Below, one piece after another: positions 26,014 to 42,333 of a DNA stretch of 64,000 nucleotides. The stretch comes from Kitasatospora sp. NBC_01250 (GTDB lineage Bacteria; Actinomycetota; Actinomycetes; Streptomycetales; Streptomycetaceae), in assembly GCF_036226465.1 (NCBI RefSeq), contig NZ_CP108476.1, positions 744,001-808,000 of the forward strand. The letters run 5' to 3'. Position numbers and translations under genes: made by a program. The notes under the pieces were generated by a model. The model had not been told where the DNA came from, ran no database searches, and saw only the letters and a list, made by a program, of their open reading frames with translations. Within the stretch, counting starts at the first letter, position 1. The number at the start of each line of letters is the position of its first letter.

Positions 26014-27198
26014 CTACACCTGCGGCTGCTGCTGGGTGACGCAGTGGATGCCGCCGCCGCCCGCGCCGATGTAGTCGATGTCGAGCTGTTCGACGGTCCG
26101 GTCCGGGAAGAGGTCGGCCAGGGTGGACCTGGCCTCGGCGTCGGCGCGGGTGTCGCCGAACTGGGCGGAGATCACGGCGCCGTTGCAGAGGTAGTAGTTG
26201 GCGTAGGAGCCGACGAAGTCGGGGTTGGTGGAGCGGATGAGGTTGTAGTTCGGGCCCTGGATCTGGCTGACCGCCATCGGGTCCCCGTCGGCGTCGGTGG
26301 CGGCGGAGAGGATCTGGTCCTGCTGGCGCTCGTCGTTGGACCAGATGTCGGTGTCGCGCGGCTGCGGGATCTGGACGGCGGCCTGGCCGGCGCCGAGGAA
26401 GCGGGAGGTGGCGTCGACGTGGTCGTCGGTGATGTCCTGGCCCTTGATGCCGGGGAACCAGATCACCGTGGAGGCGCCGTAGGCCGCGCACATGGCGGCC
26501 TCGATCTGGGTCTGTGACAGGTCGGGGTTGCGGTTGGCGTTGATGATGCTGCTGCGGGTGGCCATCAGGGTGCCGGCGGCGTCGGTCTCGATGGCGCCGC
26601 CCTCGCAGACGAGCCCGGCGGCGGTGAAGGGGATGCCGAGGTAGGCGGCGATCCGCTGGGCGACCAGGGCGTCGTTCTGGTGCGGGTTCTGCTTGCCGCC
26701 CCAGCCGTTGAAGTTGAGGCCGACGGCGTCGAGTCCGCCGGCTCCGTCGGTGCGGAAGATCGGGCCGGTGTCGCGCATCCAGCAGTCGTCGACCGGGATC
26801 GAGCCGATCACCGTGACGCCCGAGCCGCACAGCGAGCGGGCCTTGGCGACGCTCGCCGAGTTGGCGACCATGATGACCGGCTCGTACCCGGCGATGGTCC
26901 GGGCGACGAGCGCGATGTTGGACTGGACGCCGCTGAGTTGGTTGCGCCAGATGCTGGTGCTGTCCGGCCAGGCCATCCAGGTCCGGGTGTGCGGCAGGCT
27001 GTCCAGCGGTACGTAGGAGCCGGTCGTGGCCGCTGCCCGGGCTGCGCCCGCCACCGCCCGGGTGCGGCGCGGGCCGGCCATCGCCCGGCCGCCGGTCGCG
27101 GCGGTGAGTGCGGCGCCGGCCGCGGTGAGGCCCGCGGCGGTCAGGAATCCGCGTCTGCCGAGCCCGGCGCGCGGCCGGGGCTCCTGGTGCTCGTTCAT
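26014..27198 (-). CDS. Tat-exported agmatine-deiminase-family enzyme (copy 1)
   Basis: This 394-residue member of the peptidyl-arginine/agmatine deiminase family starts at ATG 27198 with GGAGG 6 nt upstream. A twin-arginine signal (GRRGFLTAAG at 14-23, with an Ala-rich helix) indicates export. Catalytic motifs are complete: WMRDTGPIF, EGGAIETD, DDHVDATSRF and GGGGIHCVTQQ with nucleophile Cys386. The family hydrolyses a guanidino group to a ureido group plus NH3 (agmatine to N-carbamoylputrescine, or arginine residues to citrulline). It has its own divergent TetR gene and a palindromic operator over its promoter. Four more family members follow within 15 kb. The substrate is not determined by sequence. 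Confidence 0.88.
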   Translation of the reverse strand: MNEHQEPRPRAGLGRRGFLTAAGLTAAGAALTAATGGRAMAGPRRTRAVAGAARAAATTGSYVPLDSLPHTRTWMAWPDSTSIWRNQLSGVQSNIALVARTIAGYEPVIMVANSASVAKARSLCGSGVTVIGSIPVDDCWMRDTGPIFRTDGAGGLDAVGLNFNGWGGKQNPHQNDALVAQRIAAYLGIPFTAAGLVCEGGAIETDAAGTLMATRSSIINANRNPDLSQTQIEAAMCAAYGASTVIWFPGIKGQDITDDHVDATSRFLGAGQAAVQIPQPRDTDIWSNDERQQDQILSAATDADGDPMAVSQIQGPNYNLIRSTNPDFVGSYANYYLCNGAVISAQFGDTRADAEARSTLADLFPDRTVEQLDIDYIGAGGGGIHCVTQQQPQV

Positions 27199-27244
27199 CT
27201 CGTCCTCCAGTCAACTGCCCGTGGATTCACCACGGTTGACCGGG

Positions 27245-27273
27245 AACATAAAACTGACCAAGCGCTCGGTCAA
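27245..27273 (-). promoter_or_regulatory. Promoter and TetR-type operator of deiminase copy 1
   Basis: On the minus strand TTGACC (27273-27268) and TATGTT (27250-27245) are separated by 17 bp, a good -35/-10 pair. The palindrome TGACCGAGCGCTTGGTCA (27272-27255; one mismatched pair) overlaps the -35 and half the spacer. A repressor bound there would block RNA polymerase. The adjacent TetR gene at 27350 is the obvious candidate. Confidence 0.7.
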
Positions 27274-27337
27274 GAGTTCTCACAGCAACTCCCCGCGATG
27301 AGCGGCAACTCGCCCTGGCGTGCCGACGCGGACTCGT

Positions 27338-27343
27338 TAGAGT
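27338..27343 (+). promoter_or_regulatory. Putative -10 (TAGAGT) of a leaderless TetR transcript
   Basis: TAGAGT ends 7 nt before the ATG at 27350, with no Shine-Dalgarno site between. The same hexamer at the same distance precedes the TetR gene at 34661. Confidence 0.4.
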
Positions 27344-27349
27344 TGCCGC

Positions 27350-28015
27350 ATGGTCGCGCGCGCGAAGGACGTCAGCCCTGCAACTCCCGGGAACGGCCCC
27401 GCCCTCCCGCCGGCGCCGCCCGGCCGGGCGCGGGCCTCGGCCAAGGGCGAGCAGACCCGGGCACGCCTGATCGCCGCCGCGCGGACCCTGCTGGCGGTCG
27501 CGGGCGGTGAGCGGTTCACGACCCGCAACGTGGCGGCGGCGTGCGGGATTTCGCACGGCATGTGCCACTACCACTTCGCGGACCGGACCGATCTGATCGT
27601 GGCGGTGGTCCAGGACATCCGGCCGGAGTGGATCGCCCCACTGGCGGCCGCCGTCGACGCCCCCGGCACGTTCGCCGAGCGCGCCGAGCGGGTGCTGGCG
27701 CTGCTCACCCAGCCCGAGGCCACCGACCTGGCCCGGCTGCACTCCGCGCTGCACTGGTTCGCCCTCCACGACGAGCGCGTGCGGGTCGCCCTGGACGCGG
27801 AGTACCGCCGCTGGCGGTCCTGCTTCGTCAGGCTCTTCGAGGTGCTGGCCCAGGAGCGCGGCGGCGGCATCGACCCGCGCCCACTGGGCGAGGCCGTCGC
27901 CGGGGCGGTCGACGGGCTGGCGGCCATCCAGTCCCTGGACCCGCGGCTGGACACCGCCCGCGTCCTGCGCGGCCTGGTCGGCGCGCTGGCCGCGAGCGGG
28001 CCGCAGAGGTCCTGA
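27350..28015 (+). CDS. TetR-family regulator divergent from deiminase copy 1
   Basis: This 221-residue protein has a Pro/Ala-rich N-terminal extension (about 1-30), then the HTH (ARLIAAARTLLAVAGGERFTTRNVAAACGISHGMCHYHFADRTDLIVA, about 39-83). The C-terminal domain has the TetR_C_6-like pattern seen in PuuR/BetI-type regulators of amine metabolism, including WFALHDERVRVALDAEYRRWR. That branch often senses polyamine, choline or related compounds, which would suit a deiminase target, but this is inference. The gene appears leaderless. Its stop lies 12 bp from the convergent ABC operon end. Confidence 0.82.
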   Translation: MVARAKDVSPATPGNGPALPPAPPGRARASAKGEQTRARLIAAARTLLAVAGGERFTTRNVAAACGISHGMCHYHFADRTDLIVAVVQDIRPEWIAPLAAAVDAPGTFAERAERVLALLTQPEATDLARLHSALHWFALHDERVRVALDAEYRRWRSCFVRLFEVLAQERGGGIDPRPLGEAVAGAVDGLAAIQSLDPRLDTARVLRGLVGALAASGPQRS

Positions 28016-28027
28016 GCCCACCTGGCC

Positions 28028-28828
28028 TCAGGGGAGTGCCCGCCGGGCCGCGGCGATCCGCCGGGGGTCCCAGCCCGGTCGGGGCACGGAGTCCAGCAGC
28101 AGCCAGGTGTAGGGGTGTTCCGGCGCGGCCAGCACCTGCGCGGTGGGCCCCGACTCGACGATCCTGCCGTGCCGCATGACGATCACGTCGTCGGTGACGC
28201 AGCGCACCACGCCGAGGTCGTGGGTGATGAACAGGTAGCCGATGCCGGTCTGTTCGCGGATGTCGGCGAGCAGGTTGAGCACCTGGGCCTGCACGGAGAC
28301 GTCCAGCGCCGCGACGGCCTCGTCCAGGACCATGACCGCGGGTTCGAGGGCCAGCGCGCGGGCGATGGCGACGCGCTGACGTTGGCCGCCGGAGAGCTGG
28401 CGGGGCAGCGCGCTCGCGGCGCGGGTGCCGAGGCCGACCTGGTCGAGCAGTTCGGCGATCCGGCGGCCGTGGTCGGCCCCGGGGAAGTGCAGGCGCAGGG
28501 CTTCGCGCAGCGCCGCCTCGACGCTGGTGCGCGGGTCGAGGGAGAGGTAGGGGTCCTGGAAGACCATCTGGATCTGCCGGGCCCGTGCCAGGCGCCCGGC
28601 CCTGCCCCGGGCGTGCTCGGTGCGGTCGCGTCCCTGCAGCAGCACCCGCCCGGCGTCGGCCCGCTCCAGGCCGACGATGATCCGCGCGGTGGTGGTCTTG
28701 CCGGAGCCCGACTCGCCGACGATCCCGAGCGAGCCCCCCGCGGGGAGGCTGAAGGAGACGTCGTCGACCGCTCGGACACCGCCGAACGACCGCTGCAGGC
28801 CGGTGACTTCGAGGACGGCGTCAGGCAT
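28028..28828 (-). CDS. ABC importer ATPase, OppF/DppF type
   Basis: This 266-residue protein has Walker A GESGSGKTT (about 38), signature LSGGQRQRVAIARAL (about 147), Walker B VMVLDEAVAALD (about 170) and switch His in FITHDLG (about 203). It ends soon after PEHPYTWLLLDSVPRP, shorter than many OppF proteins because the C-terminal oligo_HPY extension is minimal. Walker B is followed by Ala where most family members have Pro. ATG 28828 overlaps the upstream ATPase gene end. It is the last gene of the deiminase/importer operon and powers uptake with the 28821 ATPase. Confidence 0.9.
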   Translation of the reverse strand: MPDAVLEVTGLQRSFGGVRAVDDVSFSLPAGGSLGIVGESGSGKTTTARIIVGLERADAGRVLLQGRDRTEHARGRAGRLARARQIQMVFQDPYLSLDPRTSVEAALREALRLHFPGADHGRRIAELLDQVGLGTRAASALPRQLSGGQRQRVAIARALALEPAVMVLDEAVAALDVSVQAQVLNLLADIREQTGIGYLFITHDLGVVRCVTDDVIVMRHGRIVESGPTAQVLAAPEHPYTWLLLDSVPRPGWDPRRIAAARRALP

Positions 28829-29837
28829 CGGCGGCACTCTCTGCGAGGCGGTCGCTGTGGTGGCACGCGGCCAGGTGGCCGGGTGCACCGGAGGCGGCCC
28901 GCGGCTGCGGCGCCTCGGTGGTGCACACCTCGGTCGCGAAGCGGCACCGCGGAGCGAACGGGCATCCGGTCAACTCCTGACGCAGGTCCGGCGGTTGGCC
29001 GTCGATGGCGGCGAGCCGGGTGCCGGGGGCGGTCAGCTGCGGGGTGGCGGCGAGCAGCGCGAGGGTGTAGGGGTGGCGGGGGCCGGCGAACAGGGTCTCG
29101 GCCGGACCGGTCTCCACGATCCGCCCGGCGTACATCACATAGACCCGGTCGCTGATGGCGGCGGCCAGGCCGAGGTCGTGGGTGACGAAGAGCAGCGCGG
29201 TGGCGAACCGCTCCTTCAACTCACTGATCAGCGCGATGACTTCCGCCTGGCTGGTGACGTCGAGGGCGGTGGTGGGCTCGTCGGCCAGGAGCAGCACGGG
29301 ATCGCCCATCAGGGCGGCTGCGATCATGACGCGTTGCAGCATGCCGCCGGACAGCTGGCCGGGATAGCGGCGCAGCACGGAGTCGTCGAGGCCGACGGCG
29401 GCCAGGAGTTCGGCGGCCCGGCGGGCGGCGTCCTCCGCGGTCGTGGTCCCGGCCAGACGGACGCTCTCGGTGAGGAAGTCGCCGACCCGGCGCAGCGGGT
29501 TGATGGCGGCCCGCGGGTCCTGGAAGATCATCGCGACCCGGCCGGTGCGCAGCGTGCGCAACTGCCGCGCATCCAGCGCGAGGACGTTCTCGCCGCCGAC
29601 CTCGACCTCGCCCTCGGCCCGGGCGCCCTTGGGCAGCAGCCGGAGCACGGTGCGCGAGGTCAGGGTCTTGCCGGAGCCGGACTCCCCCACCAGGGCGACG
29701 GTTTCACCGGCCGCGACGTGCAGGTCGACGCCGTCGAGGACGGGCCGGGCGGTGCCGGGCAGGTGCAGCCGCAGGTCCCTGATGGCGAGGGTGTCGGGCG
29801 CGTCGGGGGCGTCCCGGGTGTCGAGAGTGCGGGTCAT
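28821..29837 (-). CDS. ABC importer ATPase, OppD/DppD type
   Basis: This 338-residue protein has Walker A GESGSGKT (about 50), Q-loop MIFQDP, signature LSGGMLQRVMIAAAL (about 158) and Walker B VLLLADEPTTALD (about 177). The C-terminal oligo_HPY domain contains a Cys cluster (CPFAPRCRFATEVC, then CHH near the end), which in this family can coordinate an iron-sulfur cluster. The start ATG overlaps the permease stop (ATGA). It forms the nucleotide-binding pair with the 28028 product. Confidence 0.93.
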   Translation of the reverse strand: MTRTLDTRDAPDAPDTLAIRDLRLHLPGTARPVLDGVDLHVAAGETVALVGESGSGKTLTSRTVLRLLPKGARAEGEVEVGGENVLALDARQLRTLRTGRVAMIFQDPRAAINPLRRVGDFLTESVRLAGTTTAEDAARRAAELLAAVGLDDSVLRRYPGQLSGGMLQRVMIAAALMGDPVLLLADEPTTALDVTSQAEVIALISELKERFATALLFVTHDLGLAAAISDRVYVMYAGRIVETGPAETLFAGPRHPYTLALLAATPQLTAPGTRLAAIDGQPPDLRQELTGCPFAPRCRFATEVCTTEAPQPRAASGAPGHLAACHHSDRLAESAADA

Positions 29838-30688
29838 CGGTCCCTCCTGGCGACCTGGTCGGCCCAGCGTTCGCCGACGACGTTGAAGGCGACGACGGTC
29901 AGCACGATCGCCAGGCAGGGCAGGATCGCGGAGAGCGGGTAGCCGCGTTGGACGGCGGTCTGCCCGTCGAAGACCATCCGGCCCCAGTCGGGGGTCAGCG
30001 CGGGCACGCCGAGTCCGAGGTAGGACAGGCCCGCGAGGTCGATCAGGGCGTAGCCGAAGTTGATGGTGGACTGGGCCAGCACCACGGGCGCGATGTTGGG
30101 GATCACGTGCCGCAGGCAGATCTGCACGGCGGAGTGGCCCTGGACCTGGTAGGCCGCGACGTAGGGGCGTTCCCGCTCGGCGAGGACGAGGGAGCGGGTC
30201 AGCCGGGAGACGTAGGGCAGGTAGGCGATCGCCAGGGCGAGGACGGGGGCGAGCAGGCCCTCGCCGTAGACCGTGACGATGAGGATCGCGAGCAGCATCC
30301 CGGGGAAGGCGAAGACGAGTTCGGTGGCGCGCGAGAGCAGCGAGTCCAGCCAGCCGCCGCGCCAGCCCGCCGTGACGCCGACCGCGACGCCGGCGAGGGT
30401 GGAGAAGACGACCACGCCGAGCGGGCCGATCAACGAGGTGCGGGCGCCGAGCAGCAGCCGGGAGAGGGTGTCGCGCCCGGCGGCGTCGACGCCGAGCAGG
30501 TGGTCGGCGGACGGCCCGGCGAGCACGTTGCCGAGGTCGACCGTGTTCGGGTCGCCGGGGGCGATCCAGGGTGCGAGCACCGCCGCGAGGACGACCAGCA
30601 GGACGAAGCCGGCGCAGGCCAGGTAGAGCGGTTGCCGGGCGGCCCGCAGGCGGGCGAGGCCGGGGCGGCGGGTGAGGGCGGTGGTCAT
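29834..30688 (-). CDS. ABC importer permease, OppC/DppC type
   Basis: This 284-residue membrane protein has one N-terminal TM (about 24-45), an extracytoplasmic segment with HLLGVDAAGRDTLSRLLLGARTSL, and a five-helix BPD_transp_1 domain. The coupling motif is VQGHSAVQICLRHVIPNIAPV (about 185-205). The start overlaps the stop of the preceding permease gene (ATGA overlap at 30685-30688). It pairs with OppB to form the channel. Confidence 0.92.
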   Translation of the reverse strand: MTTALTRRPGLARLRAARQPLYLACAGFVLLVVLAAVLAPWIAPGDPNTVDLGNVLAGPSADHLLGVDAAGRDTLSRLLLGARTSLIGPLGVVVFSTLAGVAVGVTAGWRGGWLDSLLSRATELVFAFPGMLLAILIVTVYGEGLLAPVLALAIAYLPYVSRLTRSLVLAERERPYVAAYQVQGHSAVQICLRHVIPNIAPVVLAQSTINFGYALIDLAGLSYLGLGVPALTPDWGRMVFDGQTAVQRGYPLSAILPCLAIVLTVVAFNVVGERWADQVARRDR

Positions 30689-31644
30689 GCGGTGGACCTC
30701 CGGGCGCCGAGGGCGACCGTGGGGTCGACCAGCGGGAAGACGAGGTCGACGAGGAGATTCACGGTCATGAACAGCCCGACGATGAGCAGCGAGATGGCCT
30801 GGACGGTGGGGAAGTCCTTGGTGGTGGTGGCCAGTTCGAGCAGCTGGCCGATGCCGCCGATGCTGAACGCGGACTCCACCAGGACGGTGCAGATGATCAG
30901 GGTCGAGACGATCAGGCCGCCGGTGGTGAGCACGGTGCCGAGCGCGTTGCGGAACACGTGACGCCAGATCACCTGCCGCTCGGGCACACCGCGGCTGCGG
31001 GCCACGGCCACGTGCTCGCTGCCCAGTTGCTCGAGCATGGCCGCGCGGGTGACCCGGGCGAGCATCCCGATCAGGTAGAGGGCCAGGGCGATGGCCGGCA
31101 GCGTGAGGTGCCGGGCCATGTCCCCGAAGCCGTGGCCGGTTCCGCCGGTGGGGAACCAGCCGAGCCGGACGGAGAAGAGCCCCTGGAGCAGGATGGCGGC
31201 CACGAAGGACGGCGTGCCGACCGCGATGGTGGTGCTGACCAGGATCGTCGAGTCGATGGCCCCGCCGCGCACGGCGCCGATCCAGCCGAGCGCCAGGCCG
31301 GCCACCACCACCAGGACCAGCGCCATCGCGACCAGCAGCAGGGTGCTGGGCAGCCGGTCGGCCAGCAGCTTGGAGACGTCGGTGCGGTACTCGATCGAGC
31401 GCCCGAAGTCGCCCTGCAGCACCTGGCCGAGCCAGCGCAGGTAGCGCACGACGAACGGGTCGTCCAGGTGGTACTGGTGGTTGATCGCCGCCAGTGCGGC
31501 CGGCGAGGCCGAGCGCCCGGAGAGCAGGAAGCTCGCCGGATCGCCGGGCGCCAGGTACATCGCACCGAAGATCACGAAAGAGGCGCCGAGCAGGGTGGCG
31601 GCCATCTCCAGCAGCCGCCGCAGGGCGAATTGTACGAAGCTCAC
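30685..31644 (-). CDS. ABC importer permease, OppB/DppB type
   Basis: This 319-residue protein starts at GTG 31644, overlapping the solute-binding-protein stop. The N-terminal helix (LRRLLEMAATLLGASFVIFGAMYLAPGDP) is the usual OppB start. The coupling motif is SRGVPERQVIWRHVFRNALGTVLT (about 220-243). There are six TM helices. Together with the 29834 permease it forms the translocation pore of a peptide/nickel-type importer. Confidence 0.92.
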   Translation of the reverse strand: MSFVQFALRRLLEMAATLLGASFVIFGAMYLAPGDPASFLLSGRSASPAALAAINHQYHLDDPFVVRYLRWLGQVLQGDFGRSIEYRTDVSKLLADRLPSTLLLVAMALVLVVVAGLALGWIGAVRGGAIDSTILVSTTIAVGTPSFVAAILLQGLFSVRLGWFPTGGTGHGFGDMARHLTLPAIALALYLIGMLARVTRAAMLEQLGSEHVAVARSRGVPERQVIWRHVFRNALGTVLTTGGLIVSTLIICTVLVESAFSIGGIGQLLELATTTKDFPTVQAISLLIVGLFMTVNLLVDLVFPLVDPTVALGARRSTA

Positions 31645-33311
31645 CGGGCCGCCCCCACGTCGGCGGCCCACGGGTAGTACATGTAGGAGATCGTGGTCGG
31701 GGCGCCGGTGATCCGCTTGTTCATGAAGAGCGAGGTCGGCCACTCGGCGACCGGGATCCACAGGTCCTGGTCGGAGGCCTGCTTGTTGAGCTGGGCCTCG
31801 ATGGCCAGGCGCTGGGCCGGGTCGTAGCTGCCGACGGCCTTCTCGACCAGGTCGTCGTAGCCCTTGTCGCTGTAGCCGGCGTAGTTCTGGTAGGAGCCGG
31901 TCTGGAAGTTGGTGAGCAGGTCCATCGGGTCGGTGATGGACAGGTAGTACGTCTCGGGGAACATGTCGATGCCCTGGCGCGCCTTGGGGTCGGTGAACAG
32001 CGCGGTGAAGGCGTCCGGGGCGATCGTCTTCAGCTGGATGTTCAGCCCGATCCTGGTGCCCGCCGACTGCACGGCCGTGGCCAGCAGGGAGATGTCCTGG
32101 CCGATCGAGCTGGTGGCCATGGTGAGGGTCTTGCCGCTCGCGCCGGCCTCCTTGACCAGCTGGGTGGCCTGCGCGATGTCCGGCGCGGTCGGCTGCAGGC
32201 CGTCGAGCGCCGTCTGCCGGGTCGCCCGGTCCGCGGTGGACCAGACCGCCTTGGCGGTCAGCGAGGTGGTCGGGGTGCCGTTGCCGCCCAGGCCGGTGCT
32301 GACGAATCCGGTGCGGTCGATCGCCAGCGAGAGCGCCTTGCGGACCCGGGCGTCGCCGAGTGGTCCCTGCATGTTGGTGATGTTGACGTTGACGGTGCTC
32401 AGGCCCTCGCCGAAGTAGAGGGTGCCGGCGCTGCTGGTCTTCAGGCGGGCGTAGCTCTCGGTGGGGATGAGGTAGCCGCCGTCGGCCTCGCCGGTGAGCA
32501 GCGCGTTGGTGCGGGCGGAGGGGTCGGTGAGGAACTCGAAGACGACCTTCTTCGACTTGGCCTTCGTGCCCCAGTAGTCGTCGAAGCGGTCCAGCTCGAC
32601 CGACTGGCCCTTGGTCCAGCTGCCGAGCCGGTAGGGGCCGGTGCAGTCGAGGCTGCCGCTGGTGCCGTAGTCCTTGCCGGCCGCCTGCACGCCCTGGGCA
32701 CTGGCGACCACGCCGGCGGCGGTGGCCATGTACTGCGGGAACTGCGAGTCGGGGGTCTTGAGCTTGACGGTGACCTGCAGCGGTCCCGTTCTGGTGATGC
32801 CGTCGACGTTCTGGAAGACGTTCGCCCACGCGCCGCCGTTGTCCGGGTTCATCTGCCGGCTGAGGCTGAAGACCACGTCGTCGGCGGTCATCACGCCGCC
32901 GTCCTGGAACTTCACGCCGGAGCGCAGGTCGAAGACCCAGGTGGTGGGGTCGGGGTTGGTGGCGCTCGAAGCCAGGCCGGGTTCCTCCTTGAGCTGGGGC
33001 GTCCAGCGCATCAGGCTCTCGCACACGTTGGAGAGGATGGTGTTCTGCGGGTAGTCGAAGGCCTGGAGGTAGTCCAGCGTCGGCGGCTCGGCGTACAGGG
33101 CCCAGCTGAAGGAGTCGATCTCGCCCTTGGCGGCCGGGGTGCCGGCCGAGAGCGCGTAGGCGCCCTGGCCGGCGGTGCCGCCCGCCCGTGGCGGACCGGC
33201 GCAGGCGGCGACCAGGACGAAGGCGCTCAGGGCCGAGGCTGCCAGGGCGATCGCGCTGATCGCGCTGGCGTGCCTCCCGCGTCTGGCCGGGCGCGGTGGG
33301 GTGGGGGGCAT
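31641..33311 (-). CDS. Substrate-binding lipoprotein, peptide/nickel ABC family 5
   Basis: This 556-residue protein starts at ATG 33311 with GAGGAA 7 nt upstream. The signal ends in the lipobox LVAACAG, so the mature protein begins at Cys37, anchored outside. The SBP_bac_5 domain (about 70-470) has PPTLDYLQAFDYPQN, WVFDLRSGVKFQDGG, VTVKLKTPDSQFP, and RVRKALSLAIDRTGFV. Family members bind oligopeptides, opines, Ni chelates or cationic amines. Because a canonical agmatine deiminase gene precedes it, the ligand may be a guanidino compound or an arginine-containing peptide. The binding pocket cannot be judged without a structure. Confidence 0.92.
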   Translation of the reverse strand: MPPTPPRPARRGRHASAISAIALAASALSAFVLVAACAGPPRAGGTAGQGAYALSAGTPAAKGEIDSFSWALYAEPPTLDYLQAFDYPQNTILSNVCESLMRWTPQLKEEPGLASSATNPDPTTWVFDLRSGVKFQDGGVMTADDVVFSLSRQMNPDNGGAWANVFQNVDGITRTGPLQVTVKLKTPDSQFPQYMATAAGVVASAQGVQAAGKDYGTSGSLDCTGPYRLGSWTKGQSVELDRFDDYWGTKAKSKKVVFEFLTDPSARTNALLTGEADGGYLIPTESYARLKTSSAGTLYFGEGLSTVNVNITNMQGPLGDARVRKALSLAIDRTGFVSTGLGGNGTPTTSLTAKAVWSTADRATRQTALDGLQPTAPDIAQATQLVKEAGASGKTLTMATSSIGQDISLLATAVQSAGTRIGLNIQLKTIAPDAFTALFTDPKARQGIDMFPETYYLSITDPMDLLTNFQTGSYQNYAGYSDKGYDDLVEKAVGSYDPAQRLAIEAQLNKQASDQDLWIPVAEWPTSLFMNKRITGAPTTISYMYYPWAADVGAAR

Positions 33312-34609: not shown

Positions 34610-34638
34610 ATCCTTCATTGAACTGAAAATTCAGTCAA
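34610..34638 (-). promoter_or_regulatory. Promoter and operator of the aguA/ABC operon
   Basis: On the minus strand TTGACT (34638-34633) and AAGGAT (34615-34610) are 17 bp apart. The -35 and spacer hold ACTGAATTTTCAGT, with six-base arms ACTGAA/TTCAGT. The 17-mer TTGACTGAATTTTCAGT here matches the promoter at 35979 in 16 of 17 bases. The divergent TetR gene starts at 34661, so the site can also control that gene. Confidence 0.68.
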
Positions 34639-34660: not shown

Positions 34661-35233
34661 ATGTCGGACCGCCGGACAGAGATACTCAAGGCAGCCACCC
34701 GCGTGATCGCGCGGCGCGGCGTGCGCGGACTTCGCGTGGGCGAACTGGCGCAGGAGGCGGGGGTCTCGACCTCGCTGATCTACTACCACTTCACCGACCG
34801 CGCCGGGATGCTGCGCCAGACGCTCGAATTCATCACCGACCGCGCCGACCGGTACACGGCACAGCCGATCCCCGGCGCGGACCCCGACGACCCGCGGGCC
34901 GACCTGGCGCAGGTCCTCCTCCTGGAGCTGCAGGACGCCCCCGAGGTGCGGGAGAACAGCACCGCCTGGGGCGAACTGCGCGCCAGCGCCGTCTTCGAAC
35001 CGGACCTGCGCGAGGACCTGGCGCGGTCCACCCACACCTGGGTCCACGAGATCGCCGACCTGCTCGCCCGCGCCGACCCGCTGGGCACCGCCCCGGCGCA
35101 CGCGGCCGCCGCCGAGCGCCTGACGGCCCTCACCGAGGGGCTCAGCGTGCGCTGGCTCAGCGGCTCCCTGTCGCTGGACCACGCCCGGCAGCTGCTCGAA
35201 GGCGCCATCGACACCGAGCTGGGCGCCTGCTGA
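34661..35233 (+). CDS. TetR-family regulator A (tandem paralogue)
   Basis: This 190-residue protein has the HTH RRGVRGLRVGELAQEAGVSTSLIYYHFTDRAGMLRQ (about 17-52). The ligand domain contains ELQDAPEVRENSTAWGELRASAVFEPDLREDLA and GLSVRWLSGSL. The next gene encodes a protein nearly the same along its whole length, so this is a tandem duplication. It is divergent from the aguA/ABC operon across the operator at 34622-34638, and is probably the repressor of that operon and of the related promoters at 35979 and 42395. Confidence 0.88.
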   Translation: MSDRRTEILKAATRVIARRGVRGLRVGELAQEAGVSTSLIYYHFTDRAGMLRQTLEFITDRADRYTAQPIPGADPDDPRADLAQVLLLELQDAPEVRENSTAWGELRASAVFEPDLREDLARSTHTWVHEIADLLARADPLGTAPAHAAAAERLTALTEGLSVRWLSGSLSLDHARQLLEGAIDTELGAC

Positions 35234-35294
35234 CCTCGTGCCGCCTGGCATTCCGGTCAGGAGGAGGCCCGCAGGTCGCGTAGGGTATCGAGCC

Positions 35295-35873
35295 ATGGCA
35301 GGTCGTCGAACAGTCATCATGGAGGCCGCCGCGCGGGTGATCGCGCGGCGGGGAGTCCGCGGTCTTCGCGTGGAGGAGCTCGCGGCGGAGGCCGGCGTGT
35401 CCACCGCGCTGATCTACTACCACTTCAAGGACCGCACGGGGATCCTGCGCCAGACGCTGGAGTTCATCAGCGACCGCGCCGAGCGCTACACCAGGCAGCA
35501 GCTGGAGGGCGGCCAACCGCTCAGCGCCCGTGAGGAGTTGGAGCAGGCCCTGCTGCTGGAGCTGCAGGACACCCCCGAGGTGCGGGAGAACAGCACCGCC
35601 TGGGGGGAGCTGCGCGCCAGCGCCGTCTTCGAGCCGGAGCTGCGCGAGGACCTGGCCAGGGCCACCCTCGTCTGGGTCCAGGAGATCGCCGCGATCCTCG
35701 GGCGCGTCCAGCCCCTGGGGTCGGCGGTGGCGCTGGCCGGCGCGGCCGAGCGGCTGACCGCCCTGCTGGAGGGGCTCAGCGTGCGCTGGCTCAGCGGCGG
35801 GCTGCCGCTGGAGCACGCGCGCAGCCTGATGTCCGCCGCCGTCGACGCCGAGGTGGCGCGCCTGCGCCCGTAG
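35295..35873 (+). CDS. TetR-family regulator B (tandem paralogue)
   Basis: This 192-residue protein has the HTH RRGVRGLRVEELAAEAGVSTALIYYHFKDRTGILRQ (about 17-52). It shares ENSTAWGELRASAVFEP and GLSVRWLSG with regulator A; I estimate about two thirds identity. It starts 61 bp after regulator A stops. TAGGGT at 35281-35286 may be its own -10, giving a nearly leaderless mRNA. The recognition-helix region is almost the same in both copies (STSLIYYHF versus STALIYYHF), so they may share DNA sites but differ in ligand. Confidence 0.87.
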   Translation: MAGRRTVIMEAAARVIARRGVRGLRVEELAAEAGVSTALIYYHFKDRTGILRQTLEFISDRAERYTRQQLEGGQPLSAREELEQALLLELQDTPEVRENSTAWGELRASAVFEPELREDLARATLVWVQEIAAILGRVQPLGSAVALAGAAERLTALLEGLSVRWLSGGLPLEHARSLMSAAVDAEVARLRP

Positions 35874-35978: not shown

Positions 35979-36007
35979 TTGACTGACTTTTCAGTCAGTG
36001 CGACAGT
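35979..36007 (+). promoter_or_regulatory. Promoter and operator of the deiminase/urease operon
   Basis: TTGACT (35979-35984) and GACAGT (36002-36007) are 17 bp apart. ACTGAC (35982-35987) and GTCAGT (35994-35999) are perfect inverted arms around TTTTCA, filling the -35/spacer. The core is shared with 34622-34638 and with 42395-42410. Transcription would start near 36014, some 170 bp before the first start codon. Confidence 0.7.
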
Positions 36008-36184: not shown

Positions 36185-37351
36185 ATGACCGACCCGTACT
36201 CGCGCCCCTCGCTCGGTGAGCGCCTCTTCGGCGCCGCCCCGTCCCGCCGCACCCTGCTCGGCACCGCCGGCCTGGGCGCCGCCGGGCTCGCCCTGGGCTC
36301 GCAGGTCCTCGGCGCCTCCCCGGCGTTCGCCGACGGCGGCGGCGCCCCGCGCCCCCGGGTGCCGATGGACGACGTCCCGCACGCCCGGACCTGGATGTCC
36401 TGGCCGTCCCGCACGTCGGTCTGGGGCCGCCGGCTGCGCGGCGTGCAGGAGGACATCGCGCTGATCGCCCGCACGATCGCGCGCTACGAGCCCGTGGTCA
36501 TGTGCGCGCCGGACGACTACTCGGCCGAGGAGGCCCAGCACGCCTGCGGCCCCGGCGTCCACGTGATCGACTCGATCCCGACGGACGACCTGTGGATGCG
36601 CGACATCGCCCCGGTGTTCCGGCGGGACGGCTACGGCGGGCTGCAGGCCGTCGGGCTGAACTTCAACGGCTGGGGCAGGAAGCAGGTCCACACCGACGAC
36701 GCCCACGTCGCCGAGAACCTCGCCCGCCTGAGCCGCCTGCCCTTCGTCCGCGCCGAGTTCGTCGGTGAGGGCGGCGGGATCGAGACCGACGGCGACGGCA
36801 CGGTGTTGGCGACCGAGAGCAGCCTGGTCAACAAGAACCGCAACCCCGGCTGGAGCCGCGACGACGTCGAGGCGGCCGTGCTCGACGCCTACGGCGCGGA
36901 GAAGATGATCTGGGTGCCCGGCATCAAGGGCCAGGACATCACCGACGACCACATCGACGTCACCTCCCGGTTCGTGCGCCCGGGCCTGGTGCTGGTCCAA
37001 CTGCCGCCGGAGGGGCGCAAGGACGTCTGGGCGCGGGACGCGCGCGAGCAGTTCGCCATCCTGAACACCGCGACCGACGCGCGCGGGCGCCGCCTGCAGG
37101 TCATCGTCGTCGAGGGTCCGGACACCGTGCGCTCCAAGCGCGCCGACTTCGTCGACTCCTACCTCAACTTCCACCTCGTCAACGGCGCTGTCATCGCGGC
37201 CCAGTTCGGCGACGGCTACAAGGACGCGGCGGCCAAGCGGACCCTGGAGGCGGCCTTCCCCGGCCGCGAGGTCGTCCAGCTCGACGTCGACCGCCTGATG
37301 GCGGGCGGTGGCGGCATCCACTGCTCGACGATGCAGGAACCGCTCCCGTAG
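36185..37351 (+). CDS. Tat-exported agmatine-deiminase-family enzyme (copy 3)
   Basis: This 388-residue protein starts at ATG 36185, 6 nt after GGAG. The Tat signal has SRRTLLG at 20-26 and a cleavage-like SPAFADGG around residue 44. Motifs are WMRDIAPVF, EGGGIETDGDGT, NKNRNP, DDHIDVTSRF and GGGGIHCSTMQ with Cys380, so the catalytic set is intact. The usual RDxGP reads RDIAP. It is most like copy 1 in layout. It opens an operon with copy 4 and the urease genes, spaced 71 bp, 4 bp and then overlapping. The substrate may be agmatine, free guanidino compounds or peptidyl arginine. Confidence 0.88.
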   Translation: MTDPYSRPSLGERLFGAAPSRRTLLGTAGLGAAGLALGSQVLGASPAFADGGGAPRPRVPMDDVPHARTWMSWPSRTSVWGRRLRGVQEDIALIARTIARYEPVVMCAPDDYSAEEAQHACGPGVHVIDSIPTDDLWMRDIAPVFRRDGYGGLQAVGLNFNGWGRKQVHTDDAHVAENLARLSRLPFVRAEFVGEGGGIETDGDGTVLATESSLVNKNRNPGWSRDDVEAAVLDAYGAEKMIWVPGIKGQDITDDHIDVTSRFVRPGLVLVQLPPEGRKDVWARDAREQFAILNTATDARGRRLQVIVVEGPDTVRSKRADFVDSYLNFHLVNGAVIAAQFGDGYKDAAAKRTLEAAFPGREVVQLDVDRLMAGGGGIHCSTMQEPLP

Positions 37352-37422: not shown

Positions 37423-38595
37423 GTGGCCCTGTCCGCCCTTTCCCGCCGCACGATGCTGCGGTCCCTCGCCGGAGCCGGCGTCGTCGCGCTCGGCGCGGCT
37501 GCCTGCACCGGACCCGACGACCTGGACGACACCGCCGATGCCGGCCCGCCCTCCGGCTCACCCCAGCCGGGCGGGGCGAGCGGCGCGGCGCCCGGTCGCC
37601 GGCTCGGGGCCGAGTGGGAGAAGCACGCGCGCACGTTCATGGCCTGGCCCGCCTCGCAGGACGTCTGGGGCGAGCAGCTCGACGCCGTCCGCAAGGACAT
37701 CGCGGGCGTGGCGCGGGCGATCGGCAGCCGCGAGCCGGTGGTCCTGCTGGTGCGGCCCGGCCAGGAGAGCGGGGCGAAGAACGCCTGCGGCTCGAACGTC
37801 GAGGTCTTCTCGACCCCGGTCGACGACCTGTGGGCGCGCGACACCGTGCCGGTCTTCGTCGAGGAGGGCGGCAAGGTCAAGGGCGTCGACTTCAACTTCA
37901 GCGGCTGGGGCGGCAAGCAGCAGCACGCGAACGATGCCGGCATCGCCCGCGCGGTGCTGGCCAAGTACGGCATCGAGCGGATGCAGACCCCGATCGTCGC
38001 CGAGGGCGGCTCCTTCGAGACCGACGGCCAGGGCACCCTGCTGATCACCGAGAGCTCGGTCGTCAACAACAACCGCAACTCCGGCAGGAGCCGCGACCAG
38101 GTCGAGGCCGAGCTCAAGAAGGCGCTCGGGGTCACCAAGGTGATCTGGCTGGCCGGCGTGCGGGGCAAGGACATCACCGACGCGCACGTGGACTGCCTGG
38201 CCCGGTTCGCCGCCCCCGGCGTGGTCTTCCTGGACCAGGCCTTCCCCGGCATGCCGGCGGACGTCTGGTCGCGCTCGGCCGACCAGGCCCGCGCCGTCCT
38301 GGCGGACGCCACCGACGCGACCGGCAAGAAGCTCAAGGTCATCGAGATCCCACAGCCGGACCCCGACCGGATCACCGGCCGCGGCGACGCCTTCGTCTCC
38401 TCGTACATGAACTTCTACGTCGGCAACAAGGGCGTCTACCTGCCGCTCTTCGGCGACCAGCAGGCCGACGACCAGGCGCAGCAGATCATGAAGGACCACG
38501 TCCCGAACCGCGAGATCGTCCCGGTCCGGATCGACACCATCGCCTCCGGTGGCGGCGGCATCCACTGCTCCACCCACGACCAGCCGGCCGGGTGA
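37423..38595 (+). CDS. Tat lipoprotein of the agmatine-deiminase family (copy 4)
   Basis: This 390-residue protein starts at GTG 37423, following GGAG. SRRTMLR at 7-13 is a twin-arginine motif, and LGAAAC supplies a lipobox at Cys28, so the enzyme should be anchored to the outer face of the membrane. Motifs are WARDTVPVF, EGGSFETDGQGT, NNNRNS, DAHVDCLARF and GGGGIHCSTHD with Cys382. RDTVP replaces the common RDxGP, which may alter the substrate pocket. It ends only 4 bp before the fused urease UreA-UreB gene, so the two are almost certainly cotranscribed. Confidence 0.88.
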   Translation: MALSALSRRTMLRSLAGAGVVALGAAACTGPDDLDDTADAGPPSGSPQPGGASGAAPGRRLGAEWEKHARTFMAWPASQDVWGEQLDAVRKDIAGVARAIGSREPVVLLVRPGQESGAKNACGSNVEVFSTPVDDLWARDTVPVFVEEGGKVKGVDFNFSGWGGKQQHANDAGIARAVLAKYGIERMQTPIVAEGGSFETDGQGTLLITESSVVNNNRNSGRSRDQVEAELKKALGVTKVIWLAGVRGKDITDAHVDCLARFAAPGVVFLDQAFPGMPADVWSRSADQARAVLADATDATGKKLKVIEIPQPDPDRITGRGDAFVSSYMNFYVGNKGVYLPLFGDQQADDQAQQIMKDHVPNREIVPVRIDTIASGGGGIHCSTHDQPAG

Positions 38596-38599: not shown

Positions 38600-39349
38600 G
38601 TGCAGCTGACTCCGACCGAGCGCGACCGGCTGCTGATCTTCACCGCCGCCGAACTCGCCCGCGCCCGCCGCGCCCGCGGCGTGCGGCTCAACGTGCCCGA
38701 GGCCACCGCGCTGATCGCGGACACCGTCTGCGAGGCGGCCCGCGACGGCCTGCGGCTGGCCGGGGCGATCGAGCGCGGGCGCCAGGTCCTCGGCCCGCAG
38801 GACGTCCTGCCGGGCGTGCCGGACCTGGTCACCGAGGTCAACGTCGAGGCGGTGTTCGCCGACGGCACCCGGCTGGCGGTGGTCGCCGACCCGTTCGGCG
38901 GCGGCAGCCTGGGCGAGGCGGCGCCCGGGGCCGTCACCTCCGGCACCTTCGACGCTTCCGGCACCTCCGGCCCCGACACCGCGTACGTGCCGCAGCCGGT
39001 CCGCGGCCTGACGGTCCGCAACACGGCCGGCGTGCCGGTCAGCGTGACCTCGCACTTCCACTTCTTCGAGGCCAACCCCCGCCTCGACTTCGACCGCGCC
39101 GCCGCCTACGGCATGCGGCTGGCCACCCCCGCCGGGGCCTCCACCCGCTTCGACCCGGGCGCCACGGTCGAGGTGGCGCTGGTGCCGATCGGCGGCGCCC
39201 GCGTCGCGATCGGCTTCGCCGGGCTGGTCGACGGCCCGCTCGATGCCCCGGGCGCCAAGCAGCAGGCGCTGCGCCGGGCCGCCGCGTGCGGCTATCTCGG
39301 GGCCCTGGCCGAAGCCCCTCTTGGCGACGAGCTGGAGGACGAACGGTGA
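38600..39349 (+). CDS. ureAB: Fused urease gamma-beta subunit (UreA-UreB fusion)
   Basis: This 249-residue protein starts at GTG 38600, directly before QLTPTERDRLLIFTAAELARARRA, the conserved UreA beginning. The gamma part (about 1-100) includes NVPEATALI and VPDLVTEVNVEAVFADGTRL. The beta part (about 125-235) has VTSHFHFFEANPRLDFDR and GMRLATPAGASTRFDPG. A linker of about 25 residues joins them. Fusions of this kind are known in some bacterial ureases. It forms the structural frame around UreC. Its stop overlaps the ureC start (GTGA). Confidence 0.9.
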   Translation: MQLTPTERDRLLIFTAAELARARRARGVRLNVPEATALIADTVCEAARDGLRLAGAIERGRQVLGPQDVLPGVPDLVTEVNVEAVFADGTRLAVVADPFGGGSLGEAAPGAVTSGTFDASGTSGPDTAYVPQPVRGLTVRNTAGVPVSVTSHFHFFEANPRLDFDRAAAYGMRLATPAGASTRFDPGATVEVALVPIGGARVAIGFAGLVDGPLDAPGAKQQALRRAAACGYLGALAEAPLGDELEDER

Positions 39350-41055
39350 GCTCCACGATCGAACCGCACGAGTACGCGGCCGTGCACGGCCCGCGCGCCG
39401 GGGACCGGGTGCGCCTGGGCGACTCCGGCCTGGTGGTGCGGGTCGAGTCCGACTCGCAGCTGCCGGGCGAGGAGTTCCTGGTCGGCTTCGGCAAGACCGC
39501 CCGCGACGGGCTGCACCTGAAGGCCGCCACCGTCCGCGAGACCTGCGACGTGGTGATCAGCAACGTGCTGGTGATCGACCCGGTCCAGGGCATCCGCAAG
39601 ACCTCGATCGGCATCCGCGAGGGCCGGATCGCCGCGATCGGCCGGGCCGGCAACCCGGACACCCTGGACGGGGTCGAGGTGGTGGTCGGCACCGGCACCA
39701 CGATCGTCTCCGGCGAGGGCCTGATCGCCACCGCCGGCGCCATCGACACCCATGTGCACCTGATGTCGCCGCGCATCATGGAGGCCTCGCTCGCCTCCGG
39801 CGTCACGACGATCATCGGCCAGGAGATCGGCCCCGCCCGGGGCGTGGGCGTCAACTCCCCCTGGGCACTGCGGCACGCCTTCAACGCCTTCGACGCCTGG
39901 CCGGTCAACATCGGCTTCCTGGGGCGCGGTTCGTCCTCGGAGCAGGGCCCGCTGGTGGAGGCGCTGGCCGAGGGCGGCGCCTGCGGCTTCAAGGTGCACG
40001 AGGACATGGGCGCGCACACCCGCGCACTGGACACCGCACTGCGGGTGGCCGAGCAGCACGACGTCCAAGTGGCGCTGCACACCGACGGGTTGAACGAGTG
40101 CCTCTCGGTCGAGGACACCGTCGCCGTGCTGGAGGGCCGCACCATCCACGCCTTCCACATCGAGGGCTGCGGCGGCGGACACGTGCCCAACGTGCTGAAG
40201 ATGGCCGGGGTTTCGAACATCATCGGCTCCTCCACCAACCCCACCCTGCCGTTCGGCCGGGACGCGGTGGCGGAGCACTACGGCATGATCGTCTCCGTGC
40301 ACGCCCTGAAGACCGATCTGCCGGGCGACGCGGCGATGGCCCGCGACCGCATCCGTGCCGGGACCATGGGCGCCGAGGACGTGCTGCACGACCTCGGGGT
40401 CATCGGCATCACCTCCTCCGATGCCCAGGGCATGGGCCGGGCCGGCGAGACCGTCCGGCGCACCTTCGCCGTGGCGGCCAAGATGAAGGCCGACCTCGGG
40501 CCGATGGAGGGCGACGGGCCCGCGGACGACAACGCCCGGGTGCTGCGCTACATCGCCAAGCTCACCATCAACCCGGCCATCGCGCATGGCCTTTCGCACG
40601 AGGTCGGCTCGATCGAGGTCGGCAAGCTCGCCGACGTGGTGCTCTGGCGGCCCGCGTTCTTCGGCGCGAAGCCGCAGATGGTCCTCAAGGCCGGGTTCCC
40701 CGCCTACGGCGTGACGGGCGACCCGAACGCGGCCACCGAGGCCTGCGAACCGCTCGTCCTCGGACCGCTGTTCGGCGCGCACGGCGCGACGGCCGCCGAC
40801 CTGTCGGTCGCCTTCGTCAGCCGCGCCGCGGCCGAGTCCGGCTCCTTCGGGCGACCGTACGACGCGATGGCCACCCGGCGCCGCCGGGTCGCGGTCCGGG
40901 GCTGCCGGGGCATCGGCCCGGCCGACATGGTCCGCAACGGCCGCCTGGGCGAGGTCCTGGTCGACCCCCGCGACGGCCTGGTGACGCTCGACGGCGCACC
41001 GGTGCGCTCCGAGCCCGCGCAGGAGGTGCCGCTCAGCCGCCTGTACTTCCTCTGA
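39346..41055 (+). CDS. ureC: Diverged urease alpha subunit (UreC family)
   Basis: This 569-residue protein starts at GTG 39346 with GGAGG 8 nt upstream. The nickel-site residues are all visible: His pair in IDTHVHLM, Lys for carbamylation and a further His in FKVHEDM, His in VALHTDGLN, His in AFHIEGCGGGH and Asp in TSSDAQGMGR. The mobile flap, normally M-V-C-H-H-L-D, reads IVSVHALK: the flap Cys is Val, the general-acid His is kept, and the next His is Ala. The conserved Trp after HED is Met. No ureD, ureE, ureF or ureG genes are in the window. It may be a working urease with altered kinetics or a related ureido-hydrolase. Confidence 0.88.
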   Translation: MSSTIEPHEYAAVHGPRAGDRVRLGDSGLVVRVESDSQLPGEEFLVGFGKTARDGLHLKAATVRETCDVVISNVLVIDPVQGIRKTSIGIREGRIAAIGRAGNPDTLDGVEVVVGTGTTIVSGEGLIATAGAIDTHVHLMSPRIMEASLASGVTTIIGQEIGPARGVGVNSPWALRHAFNAFDAWPVNIGFLGRGSSSEQGPLVEALAEGGACGFKVHEDMGAHTRALDTALRVAEQHDVQVALHTDGLNECLSVEDTVAVLEGRTIHAFHIEGCGGGHVPNVLKMAGVSNIIGSSTNPTLPFGRDAVAEHYGMIVSVHALKTDLPGDAAMARDRIRAGTMGAEDVLHDLGVIGITSSDAQGMGRAGETVRRTFAVAAKMKADLGPMEGDGPADDNARVLRYIAKLTINPAIAHGLSHEVGSIEVGKLADVVLWRPAFFGAKPQMVLKAGFPAYGVTGDPNAATEACEPLVLGPLFGAHGATAADLSVAFVSRAAAESGSFGRPYDAMATRRRRVAVRGCRGIGPADMVRNGRLGEVLVDPRDGLVTLDGAPVRSEPAQEVPLSRLYFL

Positions 41056-41103
41056 CACCCGCCGCGTGTCGACGGACCTCGCTCCGCCGCCCGGCGCCGA
41101 TCG

Positions 41104-42333
41104 TCACGACGGCGACGCGCCCGGGGAGCCGGGGGCGGCCGGCTGCTGCTGCGTCGAGCAGTGGATCCCGCCGCCCCCGGCGGCGACCGCGTTGATCGAC
41201 ACCTGCACGACCTTGCGCCCGGGGTGGAGGTCGGCCAGGATCCCCGCCGCCTGGTCGTCCGCGCTCTGGTCGCCGAACTTCGGTGCGATCACACCGCCGT
41301 TGACCACGTAGTAGTTGATGTAGGTCGCGAGGAAGTCCTTGCCCTCGCCCTCGATCTTGTCCGGGTCCGGCTCGGTCAGCTCGACGACCCGCAGCTTGCG
41401 CCCCTTCGCGTCGGTCGCCGAGTCGAGCACCTGGAGCGCCTGGTCGGACGCCTGGGACCAGACGTCCGGCGGGCTGCCCGCCGCCGGCCGGTGCAGGACG
41501 ACCACGCCCGGCTCGGCGAACCTGGCCAGGGCGTCGACGTGGCAGTCGGTGATGTCCTGGCCGGCCACCCCCTGGAACCAGAGGACCTTGGTGACGCCCA
41601 GCAGCTCCTTCAGCGCCGCCTCGATCTGGTCGCGGGTCTTTCCCGGGTTCCGGTCGGCGTTGACCCAGGAGCTCTCGGTGGCCATCAGCGTGCCCTGGCC
41701 GTCGACCTCGATGGCCCCGCCCTCACCGGTGACCGGCGCCTGGATGCGCCGGATCCCGTACGTGGCGAGGAGGTTCTTCGCGACCTGGCTGTCGTTGTCG
41801 TGGGTCTGCTTCCCGCCCCAGCCGTTGAAGTTGAAGTCCACACCGGCGAGCCCCTGCGGCCCCGTCACGAAGGTCGGGCCGGTGTCCCGGGCCCACAGGT
41901 CGTCCACCGTCAGCTCGATCACCTCGACCGAGGAGCCGCACATCTGCCGCGCCTGATCGGCCTGGTCGGATCGTGCCATCATCACCACGGGCTCGAACCC
42001 GGCGACCGCCATCGCCACGTTCGCGATGTCCTGGCGCACCGCCGGGAGCTGACTGCCCCACACCTCCTCCAGCGCCGGCCAGGCCATGAACGTCCGCAGG
42101 TGCGGGAGCCACTCGGCCGGCATCGACTCCACGGCGGCGGCCGCGCTCGGCGTCGCCGTGGCACCTGCTGTGGACGTGCCGCCCGCCGCGGCGGTGCCGC
42201 CCGGTGTGACGCCGGGCGAGCCCGCATCGTCACCCGAACCCGACGTGCACCCCTCGACCAGCGTCAGGGCCGCGAGGGCCGCGCCGGAACGCAGCAACGA
42301 CCGTCGGGAGGGATGGCGGATCTCCACGGGCAC
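41104..42333 (-). CDS. Tat lipoprotein of the agmatine-deiminase family (copy 5)
   Basis: This 409-residue protein starts at GTG 42333 with AGGAG 7 nt upstream. SRRSLLR (9-15) is the Tat motif and LVEGC the lipobox (Cys29). A Ser/Thr/Ala/Gly-rich spacer follows to about residue 68. Motifs are WARDTGPTF, EGGAIEVDGQGT, NADRNP, DCHVDALARF and GGGGIHCSTQQ with Cys392. It keeps the standard RDTGP, unlike copies 2-4. It converges on ureC with a 48-bp gap. A palindrome related to those at 34622 and 35982 lies about 60 bp upstream, so it is probably in the same regulon. Confidence 0.88.
   Translation of the reverse strand: MPVEIRHPSRRSLLRSGAALAALTLVEGCTSGSGDDAGSPGVTPGGTAAAGGTSTAGATATPSAAAAVESMPAEWLPHLRTFMAWPALEEVWGSQLPAVRQDIANVAMAVAGFEPVVMMARSDQADQARQMCGSSVEVIELTVDDLWARDTGPTFVTGPQGLAGVDFNFNGWGGKQTHDNDSQVAKNLLATYGIRRIQAPVTGEGGAIEVDGQGTLMATESSWVNADRNPGKTRDQIEAALKELLGVTKVLWFQGVAGQDITDCHVDALARFAEPGVVVLHRPAAGSPPDVWSQASDQALQVLDSATDAKGRKLRVVELTEPDPDKIEGEGKDFLATYINYYVVNGGVIAPKFGDQSADDQAAGILADLHPGRKVVQVSINAVAAGGGGIHCSTQQQPAAPGSPGASPS

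Follow-up and report, generated by a model that had tools for sequence, protein, structure and literature searches.

What do five enzymes of the agmatine deiminase family (PF04371), an importer and a urease-like gene pair do together in one bacterium? The question is raised by Kitasatospora sp. NBC_01250, where 16.3 kb of the 64,000-nucleotide stretch analyzed here (the window; contig NZ_CP108476.1, positions 744,001 to 808,000) carry, at window positions 26014-42333, five PF04371 enzymes, an SBP_bac_5 importer, three TetR genes and ureAB-ureC. A preliminary description of the sequence had listed five motif-intact deiminases among this content, and profile matches together with reading of the motifs and open reading frames confirmed it. 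The genome (9,001,608 bases, a single contig) contains six PF04371 matches, five of them in this cluster and one at 6.758 Mb. Because any PF04371 gene was found in only 33 of the 148 genomes of a class-level sample (the class sample), and because the grouping recurs in other species, it exceeds chance.

We give roughly even odds (about 0.5) to the reading that the cluster strips a guanidino compound, most likely agmatine, to its free amine by means of the deiminases, the importer and UreAB-UreC (UreABC), the last being urease-like and acting as a ureido hydrolase. In this scheme, the exported deiminases (PADa, PADc, PADd and PADe) or the cytosolic one (PADb) would exchange the =NH of the guanidino group for oxygen, so that one NH3 is set free and a ureido (N-carbamoyl) product remains; the likely case would be the conversion of agmatine to N-carbamoylputrescine. 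The importer would carry the substrate or the ureido product inward, and UreABC would hydrolyze the ureido group, yielding the amine, CO2 and another NH3, with no apparent need for UreG, a job done elsewhere by AguB (nitrilase fold) or AguY (amidase fold). Control would be exerted by TetR2 and TetR3 on the palindrome ACTGA-N4-TCAGT, released when the substrate appears, as with AguR in Pseudomonas. More tentatively, we propose that the divergent UreC branch to which the window protein belongs, present in 80 of the 121 genomes of a family-level sample (the family sample) and annotated as urease by the customary models, is an N-carbamoyl-amine hydrolase independent of UreG and not a urease, and would represent a third, unrelated last step of agmatine breakdown, with one operator here joining exported deiminases and importer.

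Textbooks present urease as acting on one main substrate and depending on a set apparatus for its maturation. If the proposal is true, the urease scaffold has been reused for another substrate by a widespread branch that stands beside deiminases, is able to exist without the maturation machinery and takes the position of two known ureido hydrolases. The annotation of genes such as SCO5525-5526 would then be corrected, and the breakdown of polyamine and guanidino nitrogen in Streptomyces would be completed.

The features of the cluster are as follows (window positions).

26014..27198, minus strand: PADa, PF04371 deiminase with a twin-arginine translocation (Tat) motif, secreted clade, motif DITDDHVD
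27350..28015, plus strand: TetR1 regulator, divergent from PADa; PF00440 match
28028..28837, minus strand: importer ATPase 2 (ABC_tran, oligo_HPY); alternative open start at 28888
28821..29837, minus strand: importer ATPase 1, OppD/NikD-like
29834..30688, minus strand: importer permease 2 (BPD_transp_1, OppC_N)
30685..31560, minus strand: importer permease 1, assigned by reading and between-locus similarity, without a Pfam scan
31641..33311, minus strand: SBP_bac_5 solute-binding protein of the importer (PF00496)
33417..34415, minus strand: PADb, cytosolic PF04371 deiminase of 332 amino acids; motif ETDGHVD, Glu at the agmatine-amine position
34622..34635, no strand: candidate operator ACTGAAAATTCAGT, between PADb and TetR2
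34661..35233, plus strand: TetR2 regulator; PF00440 match
35238..35873, plus strand: TetR3 regulator, resembling TetR2; PF00440 match
35982..35995, no strand: candidate operator ACTGACTTTTCAGT, upstream of PADc-PADd-ureAB-ureC
36185..37351, plus strand: PADc, Tat-motif PF04371 deiminase
37423..38595, plus strand: PADd, Tat-motif PF04371 deiminase with a lipobox-like Cys
38600..39349, plus strand: ureAB, urease gamma-beta fusion
39346..41055, plus strand: ureC of the divergent clade, overlapping the ureAB stop; loop deletion, no flap Cys
41104..42333, minus strand: PADe, Tat-motif PF04371 deiminase with a lipobox-like Cys

Upstream of PADe and on the same strand lies a gene for an FAD-dependent monooxygenase (42427-43608), a relative of which was labelled in locus L020 only. 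The same genome holds a second copy of the pair at 6.76 Mb (locus L004), arranged ureAB-ureC-PADf with the deiminase gene PADf directly after ureC; the UreC encoded there is 84% identical to that of the window. The region at 1.626 Mb (locus L005) carries an ordinary urease operon that includes ureF, ureG and ureD as well as ammonium-transporter-like genes (ureF and the transporter genes were identified by eye).

Conservation of the cluster and exchange of the deiminase partner

A scan with the window UreC returned at least 582 stretches encoding a relative, and the best 80 loci were kept. Genes were called with a simple caller that missed some of them, and the neighbor table omits L005, L086, L088 and L101. 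A PF04371 deiminase (PAD) gene is present at 78 of the 80 loci, on the same strand as ureC and less than 300 bp away from it in 69; at the remaining two (L046 and L052) the caller found neither a full ureC of the divergent family nor a PAD. A simple type, ureAB-ureC-PADf, in many cases accompanied by a TetR gene, accounts for 61 of the 80 loci. An NCS1 permease gene, possibly the substrate carrier of this simple module, adjoins ureAB in 32 of the 80. The simple-type locus is flanked by genes that, judged from their sequences, are leuB/ilvE-like and cimA-like. In S. coelicolor it probably corresponds to SCO5525-5527 (numbers as in the accessible parts of PMC2492869 and PMC3293853). A lack of conservation beyond the genome of origin would have refuted the preliminary description, but the cluster is conserved: 15 of the 80 loci are of the window type, in which UreC, PADb, the importer, the exported PADs and the TetR genes are arranged in varying order, and in the Embleya locus L029 these genes form one co-directional array. 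Two more loci, L010 and L013, are partially of this type.

The pairing was also seen when whole genomes were sampled. Divergent UreC was found in 15 of the 148 class-sample genomes, and PF04371 in all 15 of these vs. 18 of the 133 others, with a PAD no more than 1 kb from the divergent ureC in 13. The family sample contained 92 divergent UreC places in its 80 positive genomes. For 85 of the 92, a listed PAD (above about 342 bits) was no farther than 1 kb away, a number that rises to 87 at a limit of 5 kb, whereas none of the 58 other listed ureC genes, including two of a third class (G156 and G239), had one within 5 kb and a single one had it within 20 kb (G158, 8.7 kb). Of the remaining five divergent places, the one in G156 has a PAD-like gene next to ureC on direct reading (L104). 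In G163, G192, G199 and G202, no PAD is listed on the contig that carries the divergent ureC.

Among the 18 class-sample genomes with PF04371 but without divergent UreC, 15 carry the PADf class and three other PAD classes. The neighbor of PADf in these 15 is a CN_hydrolase relative in eight, an Amidase relative in five (loci L127, L128, L131, L135 and L138) and a contig edge in two (G032 and G129); the partners were identified by Pfam in two of the eight CN_hydrolase and one of the five Amidase cases and by phmmer in the rest. No called gene similar to either partner at 1e-15 was found in 95 loci (94 divergent-UreC loci and the window). In the deiminase tree, the PADf rows linked to UreABC, CN_hydrolase and Amidase fall into one group of 26 (support 100/99 including L142, 73/88 without it), with two label changes for UreABC, five for CN_hydrolase and one for Amidase.

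An amidase encoded beside aguA, AguY, is reported as the N-carbamoylputrescine amidohydrolase of Shewanella and the actinomycete Microterricola gilva (Li et al. 2025, PMC12283126, in the part of the text available, in which the word urease does not occur). The UreABC gene pair adjoins the deiminase gene as the AguB and AguY genes do. With one PADf class that exchanges its partners and with the AguY precedent, the simplest reading is therefore that UreABC may fill the same step as the CN_hydrolase and Amidase partners. Breakdown finished inside the cell, as proposed at the outset, agrees with this, while the view of the urease as an ammonia-releasing add-on does not; UreABC would likely catalyze the second step and probably does not act on urea. 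An AguB elsewhere in the Kitasatospora genome was considered and rejected: the TIGR03381 match reaches 255 bits against a cut-off of 410 and lies far from the cluster, and none of the 148 class-sample genomes passes this cut-off. An NCS1-type permease gene is found near PADf and UreABC (L053:7735-9093) and, separately, next to PADf and Amidase (L131:4341-5846).

Divergent UreC and urease maturation genes

The window ureAB and ureC products match the urease gamma, beta and alpha subunit families (PF00547, PF00699 and PF00449). The domain matches of UreC itself are PF01979/PF00449, with no homology to CN_hydrolase or Amidase, the families of AguB and AguY. In a UreC tree of 35 rows, the 16 divergent rows lie on one side of a 100/100 branch, with the reservations that L088, L101 and L112 form long branches and that L102 and L103 meet the divergent clade. 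The nearest relatives of the window UreC among the matches listed are 93-94% identical and come from Kitasatospora sp. MAA4 and GAS204B. In a motif alignment excluding L107, the metal ligands (HxH, Lys, His, His, Asp) are kept in all 23 divergent rows, L047 having DPH for DTH with both His retained. In S. pasteurii urease, according to the accessible part of PMC7433671, from which the flap Cys322 numbering is also taken, the carbonyl of Ala170 in a loop contacts urea. This loop is four residues shorter in 23/23 divergent rows, and the flap Cys is replaced by V, A or S in all of them and kept in 16/16 ordinary rows, while the flap His and the following Arg are retained. Three more segments are altered in the divergent rows ([ST]DGLNE, H[IV]EGCGGGH and SDAQG). 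From the alignment, we infer that the altered residues may form a pocket for a substituted urea.

The urease alpha equivalog TIGR01792 (680 bits) is missed by both divergent UreC proteins of the genome (651.5 for the window, 615 for the 6.76-Mb copy) as well as by those of L086, L087 and L088 (634, 588 and 543 bits), while the ordinary UreC of L005 scores 888. Other UreC types were seen on the way. At L102:6455-11847 and L103:6574-11984 (G239 and G156), a third UreAB-UreC class is followed by an Amidohydro_3 enzyme (Pfam assignment run on L102) and an MFS-like transporter, and the genome UreG is not above threshold. UreAB-UreC also stands beside Amidohydro_3 at L088:6906-10913 (G143), and the subclade of this UreC has more than 100 relatives at 80% identity or above in public data, one of them named Nanopelagicales. 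At L086:3056-16301 (G018), divergent ureAB-ureC lies beside a PotD/PotA-like polyamine importer, a semialdehyde-kind aldehyde dehydrogenase and Amidohydro_3, with no UreG. At L101 (G039), a urease with fused UreAB keeps the flap Cys and is accompanied by its own UreG, in a genome without a PF04371 match.

There are no maturation genes beside ureAB-ureC in the window; the genome has UreD and UreG in its ordinary operon. In the class sample, UreG above the cut-off accompanies ordinary ureC in 56/56 genomes and is found in 0/5 of those whose only intact ureC is divergent (G018, G021, G043, G067 and G143), with sub-threshold matches in G021 (46 bits, weak) and G067 (24 bits). In the family sample, UreG is absent at 1e-40 in 7 of the 80 genomes with divergent UreC. 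A search for UreD in 11 genomes without UreG found it absent in nine, partial in G234 and as a remnant in G067, and it was present in 3/3 controls. G217 was left out of the maturation count, since its ordinary ureC ends 668 bases from a contig edge and the absence may be an assembly gap; in G203, which also seemed to combine an ordinary ureC with a missing UreG, that ureC likewise ends less than 700 bases from a contig edge. UreG, UreD and ordinary ureC are all missing in eight host genomes (G018, G021, G043, G143, G156, G201, G222 and G240), of which G201 and G156 are single contigs and G156 also holds the third, non-standard UreC class shared with G239. Therefore, the divergent clade can persist without nickel-loading genes. 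An iron urease is on record in Helicobacter (PMC11541087, as far as accessible).

Deiminases, importer and candidate operator

The five window deiminases score 317-394 bits on PF04371 (cut-off 25) and all have intact WxRD, EGG, HxD and GGGGIHC motifs. PADb starts with MPAEW and lacks a signal peptide; its gene directly precedes those for the SBP_bac_5 protein, two permeases and two ATPases. PADa, PADc, PADd and PADe start, by reading, with the twin-arginine motifs RRGFL, RRTLL, RRTML and RRSLL, which we take to be Tat signals by their consensus; PADd and PADe carry a lipobox-like Cys in addition. The division into one cytosolic and four Tat-motif enzymes thus agrees with what had been noted from the sequence earlier. 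In plant agmatine deiminase MtAIH, the amine of agmatine is bound by Asp220 (PMC6447857, accessible part). The PADb class has Glu at the equivalent position in 17/17 matched rows, and the PADf class has the motif [FY]GT-x-GHVD. Among solved relatives, PADe matches agmatine deiminases at 4e-70 and the Porphyromonas gingivalis peptidylarginine deiminase PPAD at 1e-5, PADf matches them at 1e-70 and 0.006, respectively, and PADb has no PPAD match at 1e-3; of the six enzymes, these three were compared, and none is closer to PPAD than to agmatine deiminases. In the deiminase tree, the exported enzymes fall into a single clade (100/99) together with the Tat-motif deiminases of G090 and G018. Because of the AguY precedent and PADb, and not of the exported enzymes, agmatine is our best guess for the substrate; the exported PADs may use another guanidino compound.

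The importer is complete, with a PF00496 binder, two permeases and two ATPases (permease 1 by similarity), and the nearest solved relatives of the binder include the peptide binders AapF and AgaA. In G090, which belongs to another family, a Tat-motif deiminase is followed by an importer of the SBP_bac_5 type, a TetR-like gene and a cytosolic deiminase of the PADb class, and in G018 a Tat-motif deiminase has a TetR-like and a PADb-class gene at its side. The layout of exported deiminase, importer and cytosolic deiminase hence exists apart from UreABC, and the occurrence of all three together in G090 supports the two-compartment system put forward initially. Nickel import for the urease by the SBP_bac_5 system is considered unlikely: NikA models gave 109-134 of 393-600 bits, far below the cut-off, and L130 has the importer but no UreABC.

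The palindrome ACTGA-N4-TCAGT was derived from inverted repeats found between the genes of the window. Its exact form occurs at 43 sites in 17/17 window-type loci, and every site lies outside called genes even though coding sequence makes up 77% of the total. L091 duplicates the DNA of L015, which leaves 16 distinct loci and 40 distinct sites, and the sites are not independent events because the loci are all related. A looser form gives 45 sites, one overlapping a gene end (L007), and in 128 other loci 13 sites in seven loci, 12 of these sites in six loci with window-type genes. Control patterns with other spacings gave no sites, except for 18 with N8 (TCAGT repeats), and seven other half-sites gave none. 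The sites are found close to ureAB, to the genes of PADb and the exported PADs, and to TetR genes. Within the Kitasatospora genome, the exact palindrome is found only at window positions 34622 and 35982, and the reversed control pattern once; the count of a 20-base palindrome form in the window is reached in 0/100 shuffles. The TetR-family regulator AguR controls aguBA in P. aeruginosa (PMC4287709, accessible part), and by analogy TetR2/TetR3 are inferred to be candidates for binding ACTGA-N4-TCAGT. The shared content in shuffled order and the common palindrome therefore argue for one functional unit, as originally supposed. No Rfam match, including the guanidine riboswitch or any other RNA element, was found in the window, L004, L029 or L131.

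Alternative explanations and known systems

A number of observations weigh against the breakdown of an agmatine-like compound by deiminases and UreABC. The divergent UreC alignment retains every catalytic and metal residue of urease, so UreABC may still hydrolyze urea, and the UreG present in 73 of the 80 family-sample genomes with divergent UreC could mature it; assembly or decay may also explain the missing genes in G217, G234 (partial UreD) and G067 (remnants). Divergent UreC lacks an adjoining PAD in G018 and G143, PADf stands at a contig edge of an assembly without divergent UreC in G032, and the importer-deiminase module of G090 has no UreABC. All window deiminases miss the agmatine deiminase cut-off of TIGR03380, 381.8 bits (PADa 231, PADb 354, PADc 226, PADd 255, PADe 287), as does PADf (313; the control locus L087 reaches 502). 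The secreted clade has mostly Ile where the carboxylate binding the agmatine amine is expected, and an insertion in PADf blurs this position. PADa and PADe have no palindrome, and in the window alone, with one mismatch allowed, 5/100 shuffles reach two palindromes, which is only modestly unusual.

UreABC could instead be a spare ordinary urease whose deiminase neighborhood stems only from common nitrogen control. The subunit families, a PRK13207 match of 752 bits, the full set of metal ligands and the 73/80 genomes with UreG fit this, and S. coelicolor SCO5525-5526 are described as a urea-utilizing ureABC in PMC3293853, the accessible part of which places SCO5527 in an arginine decarboxylase route and draws no link between them. 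However, a PAD adjoins 85/92 divergent vs. 0/58 other listed ureC genes, UreG, UreD and ordinary ureC are all missing in eight hosts, pocket residues are changed in 23/23 rows and only the ordinary copy passes TIGR01792, so we regard a spare urease as unlikely. Still less likely, in our view, is that a PAD enzyme turns free guanidine into urea and NH3, with UreABC as a true urease. The chemistry would be the same, the tail-binding site of PADf is reworked, and a guanidinase is paired with urease in cyanobacteria (PMC11410670 and PMC12186494, accessible parts). That GdmH-urease pairing resembles the cluster in that guanidino hydrolysis precedes a urease-family enzyme, but the cluster has no ureohydrolase, no riboswitch was found in the four loci searched, and the predicted product is a substituted urea. 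The tail-binding Glu is kept in PADb, the genome already has a second, ordinary urease, and the same deiminase class stands elsewhere with CN_hydrolase or Amidase relatives. To our knowledge, neither of these two families splits urea. The least likely of the three is that the Tat-motif deiminases citrullinate Arg in peptides outside the cell, with uptake of the products by the importer. SBP_bac_5 importers do carry peptides, peptide binders are among the solved relatives of the binder, and the secreted clade lacks the agmatine-amine carboxylate. Although PPAD is an exported member of the same Pfam family, PADe and PADf are far closer to agmatine deiminases than to PPAD, and for UreABC peptidyl citrulline would be an unexpected substrate. 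A main role in peptide citrullination is thus disfavored, and of the two substrates first suggested, a guanidino compound or an arginine-containing peptide, the latter is the weaker.

The proposed deiminase-UreABC route resembles AguA-AguB of Pseudomonas and plants in having a PF04371 deiminase beside the hydrolase of its ureido product, under TetR-family control in P. aeruginosa, but UreAB-UreC replaces the nitrilase-fold AguB, and exported deiminases and an importer are added. AguA-AguY of Shewanella and Microterricola (PMC12283126, accessible part) offers a similar case of a non-homologous AguB replacement beside the deiminase, although AguY is an amidase and the replacement here a urease-family metal enzyme; the Amidase-PADf loci are likened to AguY by family and arrangement. 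Bacterial urease shares its subunit families and His/Lys/Asp metal ligands with the window proteins, which differ in the shorter urea-contacting loop, the lost flap Cys, the lack of adjacent maturation genes of their own and the place mostly beside a deiminase. A full-text literature search, with most subscription papers outside its reach, found, among the papers listed, none joining a urease subunit gene and agmatine deiminase in one pathway. In the accessible part of PMC4991794, SCO5526-SCO5524 are named nrdABS while others use SCO5526 for ureC, probably owing to a misprinted number.

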